Assembly: GCF_035751725.1 (NCBI RefSeq)
Contig: NZ_CP142104.1
Coordinates: forward strand, 5,766,001-5,830,000
Length of the DNA: 64,000 nucleotides
Reading direction: 5' to 3'
From: Pseudomonas frederiksbergensis
Lineage (GTDB): Bacteria; Pseudomonadota; Gammaproteobacteria; Pseudomonadales; Pseudomonadaceae
Shown here piece by piece: positions 1 through 10,377 of the stretch (positions within the stretch are counted from its first letter, which is position 1; the number at the start of each line of letters is the position of its first letter). The notes beneath the pieces were generated by a model. The model saw nothing but the letters and a program-made list of their open reading frames with translations, was not told the origin of the DNA and searched no databases. Made by a program: the position numbers and the translations under genes.

Positions 1-796
1 CCGACTCCAGGACGCTGGCATTGCCGGCGTAGGACTGCTGGGTGGCGACGATTTCCTTGATGTGATCGATTCGGCGGGTCAACTGCGCCAACTCGGCGAT
101 CATGACCTGCTGCTCGATTGCCAGCGCATCGGCCAGCTTGTCCAGATAGTCCGGTAGCGCGCGCCCTTTCGGATCGCTGCTGATGAAATCGCCAAGATCG
201 TCGGGGTGCTCTTTCATCAGTTGGGCAACCTTGGCCACGCCCGGCCCCTTCGACGTGTGCACCTTCTCGTAGAGAACCTGGGCGGAAACGTTGACGCTGT
301 TGAGCACATTGCCTACGTTGTGCAGCACATTGGTGGCAATTTCCGCCATGCCGGCCCGGCGAGCCGTGGTAACCAGCTCAGCCTGCGCCTCGCGCAACTC
401 GTCGTTGACCCTGGCCAACTGCTGCGGGCTGGGGATTTTCAAGGCCGCGGGTATCAGGCGGATCAACAGGATGGCAGTGATCACCGAAGCAATGGCGGTG
501 ATCACCTTGACCAGCGCCGACAGCCAATAATAAGGGTGCCAGATGGTCAGGATTTCCATTATGTGGCTGGTTCCGCAGGCCAGGATAAACACCCCGAACG
601 CCGCGATCATCCAGTCGAACGGGACGTCCTTGCGCTTGTTGATGAAGTAGATGAGCGTGAACGGAATCGAGATATAGCTGAGGGTGATCAGGCTATCGGC
701 GATCACGTTGGTCCACAACAGATCGGGACGCCACATATAGCAATGCCCGTGGGGCATGAAGCGCTTGTCGGTCAACAGCGCCAACAGATCGTTCAT
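1..796 (-). CDS. Membrane sensor histidine kinase with ethylene-receptor-like N-terminal domain (3' part outside window)
   Basis: The frame is open from an ATG at 796 to the window edge, giving 265 codons of a longer protein. A GAGGAAG ribosome site lies just upstream of the ATG. Residues 28-116 form three hydrophobic helices that align with the copper/ethylene-binding domain of plant ETR1. Asp34, Tyr41, Pro45, Cys74 and His78 sit at the same mutual spacing as ETR1 Asp25, Tyr32, Pro36, Cys65 and His69 (all offset by 9). Cys74 and His78 are in the motif ACGTSH. A charged helix follows, then LHNVGNVLN around His159, which looks like a histidine-kinase H-box. The ATPase domain would lie beyond the edge. 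The protein probably sits in the inner membrane and signals by autophosphorylation. Ethylene binding is inferred from the motif only; the kinase call is likely but its catalytic domain is not visible. Confidence 0.82.
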   Translation of the reverse strand, partial: MNDLLALLTDKRFMPHGHCYMWRPDLLWTNVIADSLITLSYISIPFTLIYFINKRKDVPFDWMIAAFGVFILACGTSHIMEILTIWHPYYWLSALVKVITAIASVITAILLIRLIPAALKIPSPQQLARVNDELREAQAELVTTARRAGMAEIATNVLHNVGNVLNSVNVSAQVLYEKVHTSKGPGVAKVAQLMKEHPDDLGDFISSDPKGRALPDYLDKLADALAIEQQVMIAELAQLTRRIDHIKEIVATQQSYAGNASVLES

Positions 797-970
797 TTTC
801 ACTTCCTCGTTGTGCCGGTGATCCCGCCAAGTGCCGTGCGGACAAATCCAGCGTAGCAGAGCCCTCCTCCGTACTGTTTGCCCCAGGATGACGCCATCGC
901 CCCGGTAATATCCTGCGAAGATTTCGCCGTGAAACCAGCTCCCGGCTCAGTTTCGCCGGACTAATCTTCA

Positions 971-1012: not shown

Positions 1013-2506
1013 ATGTCGCTCGCCATCGTCCATAGCCGCGCCCAAGTGGGGGTCGAAGCCCCTGCCGTTACCGTTGAAGTTCATCTCGCAAATGGCTTGC
1101 CGTCGCTGACGATGGTCGGCTTGCCGGAAGCGGCGGTGAAGGAAAGCAAGGACCGGGTGCGCAGCGCGATCATCAATTCGGGACTCAATTTCCCAGCGCG
1201 GCGCATCACCCTGAACCTCGCGCCGGCAGATCTTCCCAAGGACGGCGGCCGGTTCGACCTGGCGATTGCCCTGGGGATCCTGTCGGCCAGCGTGCAGGTG
1301 CCGACCTTGATGCTGGACGACGTGGAGTGCCTCGGCGAACTGGCCTTGTCCGGTGCCGTACGACCAGTGCGCGGCGTGCTCCCCGCAGCGCTGGCGGCGC
1401 GCAAGGCTGGACGCATGCTGATGGTGCCCCGGGCCAATGCCGAGGAAGCGTGCCTGGCGTCGGGGCTGAAAGTGATTGCCGTGGACCACCTGCTCGAAGC
1501 GGTGGCGCACTTCAACGGCCACACCCCCGTCGAGCCCTTCGTGTCCAACGGGCTGCTCTCGGCCAGCAAACCCTATCCCGACCTCAGCGAAGTGCAAGGC
1601 CAGGCTGGGGCCAAGCGCGCATTGCTGATCGCGGCGGCGGGGGCTCACAACTTGTTGTTCAGCGGCCCGCCGGGCACAGGCAAGACATTGCTGGCGAGCC
1701 GTTTACCGGGATTGTTGCCGCCGCTGGTCGAAAGCGAAGCCCTGGAAGTCGCGGCGATACAGTCCGTCGCCAGTGGCGTGCCGCTAAGCCATTGGCCGCA
1801 ACGGCCGTTTCGCCAGCCACATCATTCGGCATCCGGCCCGGCGCTGGTGGGTGGCGGGTCGAAGCCGCAACCGGGGGAGATCACCCTCGCCCACCACGGC
1901 GTACTGTTCCTGGATGAGTTACCGGAATTCGACCGAAAGGTCTTGGAAGTCTTGAGGGAGCCCCTCGAGTCGGGACACATCGTGGTGTCGCGTGCCCGGG
2001 ATCGCGTGCGCTTTCCAGCGCGCTTCCAACTGGTCGCGGCCATGAACCCGTGCCCCTGTGGATATCTTGGCGAACCCAGCGGCCGCTGCTGCTGCACGCC
2101 GGACATGGTGCAGCGGTATCGCAACAAGCTGTCCGGTCCGCTGCTCGACCGTATCGACCTGCACCTGACCGTGGCGCGCGAAGCCACGGCGCTGAATCCC
2201 AAGGGCGCACCCGGTGACGATACCGCCACAGCAGCCGAGCGCGTGGCCGAAGCCCGTGAGCGCCAGCAAACCCGCCAAGGCTGCGCCAACGCCTTCCTCG
2301 ACCTGTCGGGGTTGCGCCGTCATTGCAAACTGTCCCCGACCGACGAAGCATGGCTGGAAACCGCCTGCGAACGATTGACCCTGTCGCTACGGGCCGCCCA
2401 TCGCCTGCTGAAGGTCGCCCGCACCCTGGCCGACCTTCAGCAATTGGAACGAATCAGCCGCGAGCACCTGGCCGAAGCCCTCCAATACCGGCCCGCAACG
2501 CCATGA
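1013..2506 (+). CDS. comM: YifB/ComM family AAA+ ATPase (Mg-chelatase-like)
   Basis: 497 aa, the usual length for the YifB/ComM family. The N-terminal ChlI-type domain (about residues 1-130) includes GLPEAAVKESKDRVRSAI. The AAA+ core has a Walker A GPPGTGKT near residue 218, the FRQPHHSAS segment and a Walker B-like LFLDELPEF. A Cys-rich stretch (NPCPCGYLG, then GRCCC) and the C-terminal Mg-chelatase domain follow. ComM is known as a hexameric helicase that promotes branch migration during natural transformation, and it is widespread even in species not known to be competent. An AAGGAA site precedes the ATG. It is followed 7 bp later by the convergent DUF4432 gene, so it is probably monocistronic. 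Confidence 0.95.
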   Translation: MSLAIVHSRAQVGVEAPAVTVEVHLANGLPSLTMVGLPEAAVKESKDRVRSAIINSGLNFPARRITLNLAPADLPKDGGRFDLAIALGILSASVQVPTLMLDDVECLGELALSGAVRPVRGVLPAALAARKAGRMLMVPRANAEEACLASGLKVIAVDHLLEAVAHFNGHTPVEPFVSNGLLSASKPYPDLSEVQGQAGAKRALLIAAAGAHNLLFSGPPGTGKTLLASRLPGLLPPLVESEALEVAAIQSVASGVPLSHWPQRPFRQPHHSASGPALVGGGSKPQPGEITLAHHGVLFLDELPEFDRKVLEVLREPLESGHIVVSRARDRVRFPARFQLVAAMNPCPCGYLGEPSGRCCCTPDMVQRYRNKLSGPLLDRIDLHLTVAREATALNPKGAPGDDTATAAERVAEARERQQTRQGCANAFLDLSGLRRHCKLSPTDEAWLETACERLTLSLRAAHRLLKVARTLADLQQLERISREHLAEALQYRPATP

Positions 2507-7289: not shown

Positions 7290-8684
7290 ATGCAGCATCC
7301 TGCGCGTACCGAACTCTGGGCCATCCTGCGGCTGGCTGGGCCGTTGATTGCTTCGCAGTTGGCGCACATGTTGATGGTGCTGACCGACACCCTGATGATG
7401 GCTCGCCTGAGCCCCGAGGCCTTGGCGGGCGGCGGGCTTGGGGCGGCGACCTATTCGTTCGTGTCGATTTTCTGCATCGGCGTGATCGCGGCGGTGGGCA
7501 CCTTGGTAGCGATCCGCCAGGGCGCCGGCGACATCGAAGGCGCCACCCGGCTGACCCAAGCCGGATTATGGCTGGCCTGGTTGATGGCGCTGGTGGCCGG
7601 CCTGCTGCTGTGGAATCTCAAGCCGGTGCTGCTGATGTTCGGCCAGACCGAAACCAACGTGCTTTCCGCCGGGCAGTTTCTGCTGGCACTGCCGTTCGCG
7701 CTGCCCGGTTATTTGAGCTTCATGGCGCTGCGTGGCTTTACCAGCGCCATCGGGCGGGCCACGCCGGTGATGGTGATCAGCCTCGGCGGCACGGTGGCCA
7801 ACTTCCTGCTCAACTATGCGCTCATCACCGGCATGTTCGGCCTGCCAAAGCTCGGCCTGATGGGAATCGGCCTGGTCACGGCCATCGTCGCCAACTGCAT
7901 GGCACTGGCGCTGGCCTGGCACATTCATCGGCACCCGGCCTATCGTGCCTACCCATTGCTTGCCGGGCTGTCGCGGCCCAACCGCCAATACCTCAAGGAG
8001 CTGTGGCGCCTGGGCCTGCCGATTGGCGGCACTTACGCAGTGGAAGTCGGTCTGTTCGCGTTCGCTGCCCTGTGCATGGGCACCATGGGCAGCACGCCGC
8101 TGGCGGCGCACCAGATCGCCCTGCAGATCGTCTCGGTGGCCTTCATGGTTCCGGCGGGCATGTCCTACGCCATCACCATGCGCATCGGCCAGCATTACGG
8201 TGCCGGGCAATTGCTCATGGCGCGCCTGGCCGGGAGGGTCGGGATCGGCTTTGGCGCGGCCGCCATGCTGGCGTTTGCCATGGTGTTCTGGCTGCTGCCG
8301 AATCAGTTGATCGGCCTGTTCCTGGACCATGAAGACCCGGCGTTCCGCCCGGTCATCGAGCTGGCGGTGAGCCTGTTGGCCGTGGCGGCGTGGTTCGAGC
8401 TGTTCGACGGTACGCAAACCATTGCCATGGGCTGCATCCGCGGACTGAAGGACGCCAAGACCACCTTTCTGGTCGGCCTGGGCTGCTACTGGCTGATCGG
8501 CGCGCCGGCGGCGTGGTGGATGGCTTTCCAATTGCACTGGGGCCCAACCGGCGTCTGGTGGGGCCTGGCGCTGGGGCTGGCCTGCGCGGCGGTGAGCCTG
8601 ACGTTGGCATTTGAGTGGAAGATGAAGCGGATGATTCTCAGCGAGCCGGGGCAGCGCAGCTTCGAAGCGATCCAGGCCAAATGA
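7290..8684 (+). CDS. norM: MATE-family multidrug/Na+ (or H+) antiporter, NorM type
   Basis: 464 aa with about twelve hydrophobic helices in two repeats. It opens LWAILRLAGPLIASQLAHML and carries the MATE signature region VLTDTLMMARL. Starts at 7281 (GTG), 7284 and 7290 are all in frame; 7290 is chosen because a GGAG at 7276 is then 10 bases away, while the others are too close. MATE pumps export cationic drugs in exchange for Na+ or H+ at the inner membrane. The divergent LysR gene suggests regulated expression. The substrate range is unknown. Confidence 0.9.
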   Translation: MQHPARTELWAILRLAGPLIASQLAHMLMVLTDTLMMARLSPEALAGGGLGAATYSFVSIFCIGVIAAVGTLVAIRQGAGDIEGATRLTQAGLWLAWLMALVAGLLLWNLKPVLLMFGQTETNVLSAGQFLLALPFALPGYLSFMALRGFTSAIGRATPVMVISLGGTVANFLLNYALITGMFGLPKLGLMGIGLVTAIVANCMALALAWHIHRHPAYRAYPLLAGLSRPNRQYLKELWRLGLPIGGTYAVEVGLFAFAALCMGTMGSTPLAAHQIALQIVSVAFMVPAGMSYAITMRIGQHYGAGQLLMARLAGRVGIGFGAAAMLAFAMVFWLLPNQLIGLFLDHEDPAFRPVIELAVSLLAVAAWFELFDGTQTIAMGCIRGLKDAKTTFLVGLGCYWLIGAPAAWWMAFQLHWGPTGVWWGLALGLACAAVSLTLAFEWKMKRMILSEPGQRSFEAIQAK

Positions 8685-8706
8685 ACTCGCTCCCACCGGG
8701 TTTGTG

Positions 8707-10377
8707 TCAGCTGATTTCCAGCATCGATTGCTGGTCACCCTCGAACGTCAGGTATTCCACCAACTCCACCAGCGGCAACGGCTTGCTGATCAGGAACCCC
8801 TGCACCTGATCGCATCCGAAACCGCGCAGCAAGTCCAACTGCTCGCGGGTCTCGACGCCTTCGGCCACCACTTCGAGGTTGAGGTTATGGGCCAGGTTGA
8901 TCATCGCGTGCACCAGCTTGCGGTTCTCCTCACGCTGTTCCATGCCGCCGACGAAGCTCTTGTCGATCTTGAGCAGCGCAATCGGCAGGCTGTTGAGATG
9001 CACGAACGAAGAGAACCCGGTGCCGAAATCGTCCAGGGAAAACCGCACCCCCAGGCGTCCCAGGGCATCCATGGTCTGCTTGACCAGTTCGCTGCGACGC
9101 ATGACGGCAGTTTCGGTGAGTTCGAATTCCAGCCACTGGGCTTCGACGCCGCGTTCGGCAATCAGTCGACTCAGGGTCGGCAGCAGTTGGCTGTCCTGGA
9201 ACTGCCGGAACGACAGGTTGATCGCCATGTGCAGCGGCGCCAGCCCGCGCTCGCGCAGGGCCTGCATATCGCGCAGGGCACGGGAGATCACCCAGTAGCC
9301 CAACGGCACGATGAGGCCACTTTGCTCGGCCAGCGGCACGAACTCACTCGGCGGCAACAACCCGCGCTCGCCATGACGCCAGCGCACCAGGGCTTCGAGG
9401 CCGACAATCGTGCCATCGGCCAGGTTCAGCCGAGGCTGGTAATGCAATTCCAGTTCATCACGACGCAATGCCCGTCGCAGCTCGCTTTCCAGGTCGGCGA
9501 GGCTGCGGGCATTGCGGTTGATGCGCTCATTGAAGATGTGAAAGGTGCAGCCTTGGGTGCTCTTGGCCTGCTGCATGGCAATATGGGCATGCCACATCAA
9601 GGGGTCCGCGCCGGCCTGCGCCCGGGCGTGGGCAATGCCCAGGCTGCAACCGATCAACAGGCTTTCACCGTCCACCCAGTAGGGTTCGGCCATGGCTTCG
9701 GTGATGCGTTCGGCCATCCACTCCGCTCGTTGGGGCGCGCGGCGGGTGTCGATCAACAGGGCGAACTCGTCGCTCCCCAGCCGGGCCAACTGATCGCCGG
9801 CCTCCAGCGCGCCCTTGAGCCGCGAGACCACTTGGAGAATCAAACGATCGCCGGCCTGGTGGCCGAGGGCGTCATTGGCGTGGCGGAAATTGTCGAGATC
9901 CAGGTGACCGAGGGCCAGGCCACGGCCTTCGTTTTCAGCCAGGCGCGCCGCCAGCAAGGTCTGGAAGCCCTGCCGGTTGGCGATGCCGGTCAAAGGGTCC
10001 TGCTCGGCGAGCCGTTGCAGGGTGTTTTCCAGCACCCCTCGCTCGCGCACGTGGCGCAGGCAACGGCGCAGCGTCGCCTCGTCGAGGGTGTCGCGCACCA
10101 GCCAGTCGCTGACGCCATCCGGGGACGCCGCAGGCTCGTGCTCAAGCAACAGAACCGTCGGCAGACGACAACGTCCCGGCCCCGGCTGCAGGGTAGCAAC
10201 GGTCAGCAGCACCGCGTTGCGGTTGTCCTCGAACAGGCTGCTGACCGAGTCCCAGCTCGGGGCACTGATCAACACGACCGAGGGCCCCAAGGGCGCCAGG
10301 CACTCGCGCAGTATCGCTGACCACTCAGGCGTTTCGGCCAACAACAGCAAACGCAAGGGTTCGACAGGCGTAGACAA
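8707..10377 (-). CDS. GGDEF/EAL cyclic-di-GMP protein, probably an active phosphodiesterase with a degenerate cyclase domain
   Basis: 556 aa. Residues 1-115 look like a degenerate receiver domain. A GGDEF domain (about 125-290) starts DPLTGIANRQGF, but its signature reads RLGSDEF instead of RGGDEF, so cyclase activity is doubtful. The EAL domain (about 310-550) keeps EALVRW, ELTETAVM, LDDFGTGFSS and VAEGVET, the metal and substrate residues expected of a working phosphodiesterase. No membrane segment or signal peptide is visible. From its place between a MATE gene and rep it corresponds to PA5295 (ProE) of P. aeruginosa, a c-di-GMP phosphodiesterase affecting exopolysaccharide. That assignment rests on synteny. 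Confidence 0.9.
   Translation of the reverse strand: MSTPVEPLRLLLLAETPEWSAILRECLAPLGPSVVLISAPSWDSVSSLFEDNRNAVLLTVATLQPGPGRCRLPTVLLLEHEPAASPDGVSDWLVRDTLDEATLRRCLRHVRERGVLENTLQRLAEQDPLTGIANRQGFQTLLAARLAENEGRGLALGHLDLDNFRHANDALGHQAGDRLILQVVSRLKGALEAGDQLARLGSDEFALLIDTRRAPQRAEWMAERITEAMAEPYWVDGESLLIGCSLGIAHARAQAGADPLMWHAHIAMQQAKSTQGCTFHIFNERINRNARSLADLESELRRALRRDELELHYQPRLNLADGTIVGLEALVRWRHGERGLLPPSEFVPLAEQSGLIVPLGYWVISRALRDMQALRERGLAPLHMAINLSFRQFQDSQLLPTLSRLIAERGVEAQWLEFELTETAVMRRSELVKQTMDALGRLGVRFSLDDFGTGFSSFVHLNSLPIALLKIDKSFVGGMEQREENRKLVHAMINLAHNLNLEVVAEGVETREQLDLLRGFGCDQVQGFLISKPLPLVELVEYLTFEGDQQSMLEIS

Follow-up and report, generated by a model that had tools for sequence, protein, structure and literature searches.

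The gene at the edge of the analysed window (the whole stretch of 64,000 nucleotides) encodes a histidine kinase in which an ethylene-receptor-type sensor, ETR1_N, is joined directly to a bacterial kinase core of the HNVGN type followed by a HATPase_c domain. Our favoured reading, which we hold with moderate confidence, is that this is an accessory kinase in which an ethylene/Cu(I) sensor signals through the HNVGN kinase to IHEDF regulators and on to cyclic di-GMP ("HNVGN kinase" and "IHEDF" are names coined here from sequence motifs). Judged from the protein sequence, ethylene sensing is likely; the cyclic di-GMP output, drawn from genomic association, is plausible. The sensor is of a known kind, and the HNVGN kinase half and the predicted output look new. 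This output half was beyond the view of the initial annotation, whose interpretation is partly supported overall, and it is the less expected part of the protein.

The frame of the gene continues intact and stop-free past the window in the genome sequence of the strain (G000:C1:5765519-5766000). We place the start at the ATG at 796, with a GTG at 802 as an alternative. The encoded protein is 100% identical to a protein of Pseudomonas frederiksbergensis SI8. Features within the window are given in the table.

Table. Features of the ETR-type kinase gene and its divergent neighbour; positions are those of the window.
Feature	Position	Strand	Remark
ETR-type histidine kinase gene, 5' 62% (residues 1-265 of 425)	1..796	-	
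Shine-Dalgarno-like AGGAAG, 5' of the ATG at 796	802..807	-	by eye, putative
ETR1_N (PF25487), residues 26-121; putative site for Cu(I)/ethylene in three predicted membrane helices	434..721	-	
Asp34 codon (= ETR1 D25, AzoEtr1 D35)	695..697	-	
Cys74 codon (= ETR1 C65, AzoEtr1 C75)	575..577	-	
His78 codon (= ETR1 H69, AzoEtr1 H79)	563..565	-	
Lys97 codon, helix 3 (= ETR1 K91, AzoEtr1 K98)	506..508	-	
His159 codon, predicted phosphorylated His, H-box LHNVGNVLNSV	320..322	-	from position and conservation
comM-like (Mg-chelatase-type ATPase) gene, divergent neighbour, marks insertion site	1013..2506	+	

The assignment of the sensor was supported at the level of the domain and of single residues. 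The match of residues 26-121 to ETR1_N (E 3.2e-38, 130.3 bits versus a cut-off of 27) is far above chance, and three runs of hydrophobic residues (about 31-53, 57-86 and 88-124) are consistent, on hydropathy only, with three membrane helices; a sequence search of solved structures returned no ETR relative. The initial annotation had placed Asp34, Tyr41, Pro45, Cys74 and His78 each nine positions above an ETR1 counterpart, which is correct, and Ile44 and Ile71 complete a set of seven, so that Asp34, Tyr41, Ile44, Pro45, Ile71, Cys74 and His78 correspond to ETR1 Asp25, Tyr32, Ile35, Pro36, Ile62, Cys65 and His69. These seven ETR1 residues are reportedly the list that Wang et al. 2006 found to be required for ethylene binding. 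The available text of PMC11819568 aligns ETR1 D25/C65/H69/K91 with D35/C75/H79/K98 of AzoEtr1, for which the counterparts in our protein are D34/C74/H78/K97. It describes C65 of ETR1 as required for copper coordination and H69 as a predicted copper ligand, and links the helix-3 lysine (ETR1 K91) to receptor output (PMC11819568).

We aligned 48 domains, namely those of the 20 Pseudomonas carriers and 28 of the 31 further matches from a draw across the phylum (the three left out, G579, G683 and a third match in G559, are weak or fragmentary). All seven residues are present in 20/20 Pseudomonas and 17/28 other pseudomonadotal domains, and the helix-3 lysine in 20/20 and 25/28. The Cys/His pair to which the initial annotation had drawn attention is conserved, with Cys74 in 20/20 and 28/28 and His78 in 20/20 and 26/28, so the loss of conservation that the annotation named as grounds for refutation is not seen. 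Taken with the domain score, the presence of the binding residues in every Pseudomonas carrier upholds the earlier proposal of a histidine kinase with an ethylene-receptor-type sensor. Two pseudomonadotal members of the family (L109 and L110) retain Cys65 and have Arg in place of His69 and Ala in place of Pro36; these variants perhaps sense something else.

The same comparison bears on an alternative that we regard as unlikely, in which the ETR1_N sensor of our kinase holds copper and feeds the same kinase output, and the natural signal is, in place of plant ethylene, another small ligand, copper or silver itself, redox state or light. It would fit the incomplete set of residues outside Pseudomonas, which indicates varied sites on the same fold, the description of SynEtr1 as a receptor of both ethylene and light (PMC11819568), and the best ACC deaminase match of our strain, which falls below the family cut-off (235 versus 392 bits). 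Against it stand the seven residues and the output lysine, invariant across the Pseudomonas domains, and AzoEtr1, which is reported with the seven residues and binds ethylene (PMC11819568).

In the kinase half, Pfam identified HATPase_c (PF02518) at residues 303-413 with 67.2 bits. HisKA was absent from the 425-residue protein up to E 0.01, and an HNVGN H-box (HNIGN in L026) occupies its place. Pfam gave no match to PAS, GAF, receiver or MCPsignal domains, nor to CHASE, which is the sensor domain of the Xanthomonas kinase PcrK. In a nine-row alignment the N- and G-box motifs N313, N317, DNGEG and GHGFGL are invariant. Outside Pseudomonas the sensor keeps other company: the HN-N H-box pattern occurs in 0/28 of the other pseudomonadotal ETR1_N proteins, and 9/28 have a HEIRTP-type box, the remainder being judged by eye or unclassified. 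ETR1_N thus sits on other kinase types in these proteins, which indicates that sensor and output have been shuffled. In a 13-row kinase tree the ETR kinases of P. gingeri and P. batumici group with a hybrid HNVGN paralogue from our own genome (90/89, not starred) and the Duganella kinase is unplaced. The grouping is suggestive of more than one fusion, though not proof, and ETR1_N may have been joined to the HNVGN module more than once.

The gene is patchily distributed. PF25487 was found in 20/298 Pseudomonas genomes including our own, in 0/14 control genomes, in 29/398 genomes drawn from the phylum (28 above the cut-off) and in 1/198 genomes of a family draw, our own genome alone. Carriers among the relatives include P. 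brassicacearum, P. thivervalensis (type strain, L115), P. mediterranea and P. corrugata, and their subgroup comprises both plant growth-promoting and plant-pathogenic bacteria (PMC8461476). For our own strain, the plant-associated label given in the initial annotation is not established.

The surroundings of the gene show that it is an accessory gene occupying more than one site. It adjoins comM in 17/20 Pseudomonas carriers (our own and 16 relatives) and lies near gyrB in the remaining three (L026, L027, L028). We take the genes flanking the first insertion site to be comM and ubiK. Both kinds of site also occur empty: in a relative that lacks the gene (L205) the comM-ubiK gap is about 0.2 kb, and in L196 gyrB lies directly beside a chemosensory MCP gene with no ETR gene between them. 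For the empty-site comparison ten relatives were fetched, in some of which the flank reached ubiK. On the other side of the gene, glnK is within reach in 14 of the 17 comM-site genomes, with different genes in L037, L039 and L042. A nitrogen link via glnK-amtB was considered and rejected, as a sigma-54 consensus scan of 16 kb of L005 gave 5 hits versus a shuffle mean of 10.35 and the stretch from 8800 to 11100 of L005 yielded no sigma-70 site; with the empty comM-ubiK site of L205, we interpret glnK-amtB as a bystander.

A mobile gene in decay, with little present function, would account for the patchy presence, the use of at least two sites and the empty sites in relatives, and also for the disrupted frame of one assembly of P. 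corrugata (L044:4595-5848, L124:7899-9278), caused either by a real lesion or by sequencing error. We nevertheless consider it highly improbable, since the frame is open over at least 418 codons in 19 of the 20 carrier genomes and the binding, H-box and ATPase motifs are invariant bar one HNIGN in the nine-row alignment, where identity falls to 61%. A second P. corrugata entry (P0073) encodes 425 residues with both domains present.

The candidate partners of the kinase emerged from co-occurrence. With up to a set number of candidates scored per genome across the 298 Pseudomonas genomes, the HNVGN kinase was found in 114 and the IHEDF receiver in 116, both in 114 and neither in 182. Two genomes (G018, G138) thus had the receiver without the kinase, and none the kinase without the receiver. 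All 20 ETR-positive genomes carry both. Fisher tests of these co-occurrences gave 1e-81 and 2e-9, values that ignore shared descent and hence are no true probabilities. In a separate draw of 95 genomes in the order, the IHEDF receiver was present in three: our own; G877, which has a true HNVGN kinase on a different contig; and G869, in which 24 bp separate a kinase with a variant H-box, HNIRN, from a receiver that is divergent and has an altered motif. Among the kinase matches listed, other good full-length ones examined in G876, G888, G922 and G437 have ordinary HE-N H-boxes, and these four genomes have no receiver match; further HNVGN kinases may occur elsewhere in the draw. A kinase from Verrucomicrobiales (L188) has the HNVGN box without an ETR match, and no IHEDF receiver occurs in the 9344 bases available for that locus. 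The receiver of the L028 regulator also served as a query; that scan scored 8000 candidates in a size range around 747 residues, and its hits were left out of all counts.

Physical linkage was observed in two lineages. First, in G149 (L028) the ETR kinase lies tail-to-tail with a REC-PAS-GGDEF-EAL gene; at E 1e-15 the ETR kinase is the sole HNVGN kinase found in that genome (12/12 candidates scored) and its neighbour the sole IHEDF receiver found (10/30 first-look candidates scored). Second, in Duganella sp. BJB480 (L128) an ETR-HNVGN kinase at 8001-9272, 64% identical to ours, overlaps a REC-PAS-GGDEF-EAL-REC gene by 4 bp, and a REC-kinase gene follows. With the IHEDF query the receiver of this REC-kinase reaches 208 bits, the exact IHxDF motif being unmatched. 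The receiver-PAS-GGDEF-EAL partner is thus paired with the ETR kinase in both loci; it is unlinked in our own genome. The Duganella locus as a whole (L128:2559-13401) holds five co-directional signalling genes, the other two encoding a GGDEF-EAL protein that also contains PAS and two receiver domains, and a solute-binding-domain hybrid kinase with Hpt.

Across the 79 named ETR loci (80 less L188, which has no ETR match), a GGDEF or GGDEF-EAL regulator directly follows the ETR kinase in L128, L131 and L132, and in L178 a regulator follows after a small receiver. In the phylum sample a GGDEF-matching gene adjoins the ETR gene, or is one gene away from it, at 5/28 loci (L087, L096, L101, L102, L104). 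Most ETR loci have no GGDEF-type neighbour. Six cyanobacterial loci (L155, L159, L161, L162, L164, L165) show a different arrangement, with tandem ETR1_N proteins of about 515-521 and 1023-1232 residues, possibly paired receptors, followed by a receiver gene, which in L161 is truncated where the contig ends.

Three paralogues of the HNVGN core are present in our own genome: one is a hybrid kinase (L045), and of the two further kinases one has a DAHL domain (Pfam). An IHEDF REC-kinase gene lies next to the paralogue at 1258820-1259674, which is clustered with two IHEDF GGDEF-EAL genes, so that a distant cluster at about C1:1257408-1265786 combines an HNVGN kinase with three IHEDF-receiver proteins, 2/3 fused to GGDEF-EAL and 1/3 a REC-kinase. 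All three receivers retain the Asp that is probably phosphorylated, and the Lys. The first regulator has an intact GGDEF and a degenerate EAL and is a predicted cyclase, and the second has SDEF, a degenerate GGDEF, with an intact EAL and is a predicted phosphodiesterase. The cluster also includes a gene that by eye resembles cytochrome c peroxidase. The proposed link from the ETR kinase through IHEDF receivers to cyclic di-GMP is based on this paralogue cluster, the L028 and L128 pairs, the co-occurrence in 298 genomes, the order draw and the lowering of cyclic di-GMP and biofilm by ethylene in A. brasilense (PMC11819568), with most weight on the genus-wide counts and the two linked loci.

These observations suggest the following route. 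By analogy with ETR1, SynEtr1 and AzoEtr1, the membrane domain would hold Cu(I) via Cys74 and His78, with Asp34 in a positioning role, and bind ethylene; binding would alter, and most likely lower, autophosphorylation at His159, as expected of an inverse agonist. From the genomic pairing, phosphate would pass from His159 to IHEDF response regulators, the targets in our own genome being the predicted cyclase, the predicted phosphodiesterase and the REC-kinase of the distant cluster. Ethylene may thereby set the level of cyclic di-GMP and, through it, attachment or motility. For the complete plant-hormone-to-second-messenger circuit in both Pseudomonas and Duganella, running from the Cu(I)/ethylene sensor through the HNVGN kinase and IHEDF receiver to a cyclase or phosphodiesterase, we regard the case as evenly balanced.

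A different wiring of the ethylene sensor, for example to chemotaxis proteins or an unlinked DNA-binding regulator instead of IHEDF receivers and cyclic di-GMP, seems to us quite unlikely. It could draw on our own locus, where no regulator is adjacent, on AzoEtr1, which adjoins a stand-alone receiver (PMC11819568), and on L026 and L027, where the ETR gene is divergent from an MCP-CheY-CheA cluster. At the comM site (17/20 carriers) no regulator was identified beside the ETR gene, the neighbours being fully listed for some genomes. However, the same MCP-CheY cluster occurs in L194, L195 and L196 with no ETR match within the adjoining 1.5 kb, so the neighbourhood in L026 and L027 looks incidental and was rejected as specific evidence for chemotaxis wiring; the co-occurrence and the G149 and Duganella pairs favour IHEDF receivers.

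ACC deaminase scored above its cut-off in 10/20 ETR-positive versus 27/278 ETR-negative Pseudomonas genomes (Fisher 2e-5, ignoring the relatedness of genomes). Our own genome has no such gene above the cut-off, and we treat ACC deaminase as context only and not as part of the mechanism.

The initial annotation had called ethylene sensing in this setting not well described. This is fair for Pseudomonas and does not extend to bacteria at large, since putative ethylene receptors in many proteobacteria, plant-associated ones included, are in print (PMC11819568, PMC7700396) and ethylene binding by AzoEtr1 has been demonstrated (PMC11819568). The main texts of PMC11819568 and PMC7700396 use the word "Pseudomonas" 0 times. 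The P. thivervalensis SC5 genome paper treats ACC and ethylene genes in a section of their own, where its available text lists acdS and a homologue of tlpQ, with "ethylene receptor" appearing 0 times. A literature search of titles and abstract starts returned no paper on a Pseudomonas ethylene receptor; Lacey and Binder 2016 and Carlew et al. 2019 may list some. For the present kinase there is a specific family of candidate partners, well supported by genomic association, whose predicted outputs make and break cyclic di-GMP, and its pseudomonad carriers can be grown and mutated, so a direct test is possible.

Compared with known systems, the kinase is closest in outline to AzoEtr1 of Azospirillum brasilense, a bacterial histidine kinase with an N-terminal ETR1-type domain whose D/C/H/K residues lie one position higher (PMC11819568). 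AzoEtr1 differs in having 525 residues, a PAS domain and a linked stand-alone receiver of 135 residues (PMC11819568), whereas our kinase has no PAS match, is of the HNVGN type and has no linked regulator at its site. In A. brasilense ethylene lowers cyclic di-GMP and biofilm by a pathway that the authors call unknown (PMC11819568), and the circuit proposed here, if true, would be a candidate for that missing link. SynEtr1 of Synechocystis likewise carries an ethylene-binding domain on a signalling kinase (PMC6682694, PMC11819568), but it is a light sensor as well and acts on Slr1213 and a small RNA, parts not seen here. Plant ETR1 shares the seven ethylene-binding residues and the helix-3 lysine; plant receptors, however, signal through a Ser/Thr kinase and for the most part do not depend on kinase activity (PMC11819568), whereas our protein contains a bacterial kinase core and lacks a receiver. 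The ethylene response of Pseudomonas through TlpQ is chemotactic (Kim et al. 2007, via PMC5827301) and is mediated by a chemoreceptor (MCP), not an ETR1_N kinase. Lastly, PcrK-PcrR of Xanthomonas couples a plant-hormone receptor kinase to a response regulator that degrades cyclic di-GMP, which demonstrates that a cyclic di-GMP phosphodiesterase can serve as the output of a hormone-receptor kinase (PMC7700396). PcrK senses cytokinin (PMC7700396), and our protein has no CHASE match. The proposed circuit, if true, would be for ethylene what PcrK-PcrR is for cytokinin.
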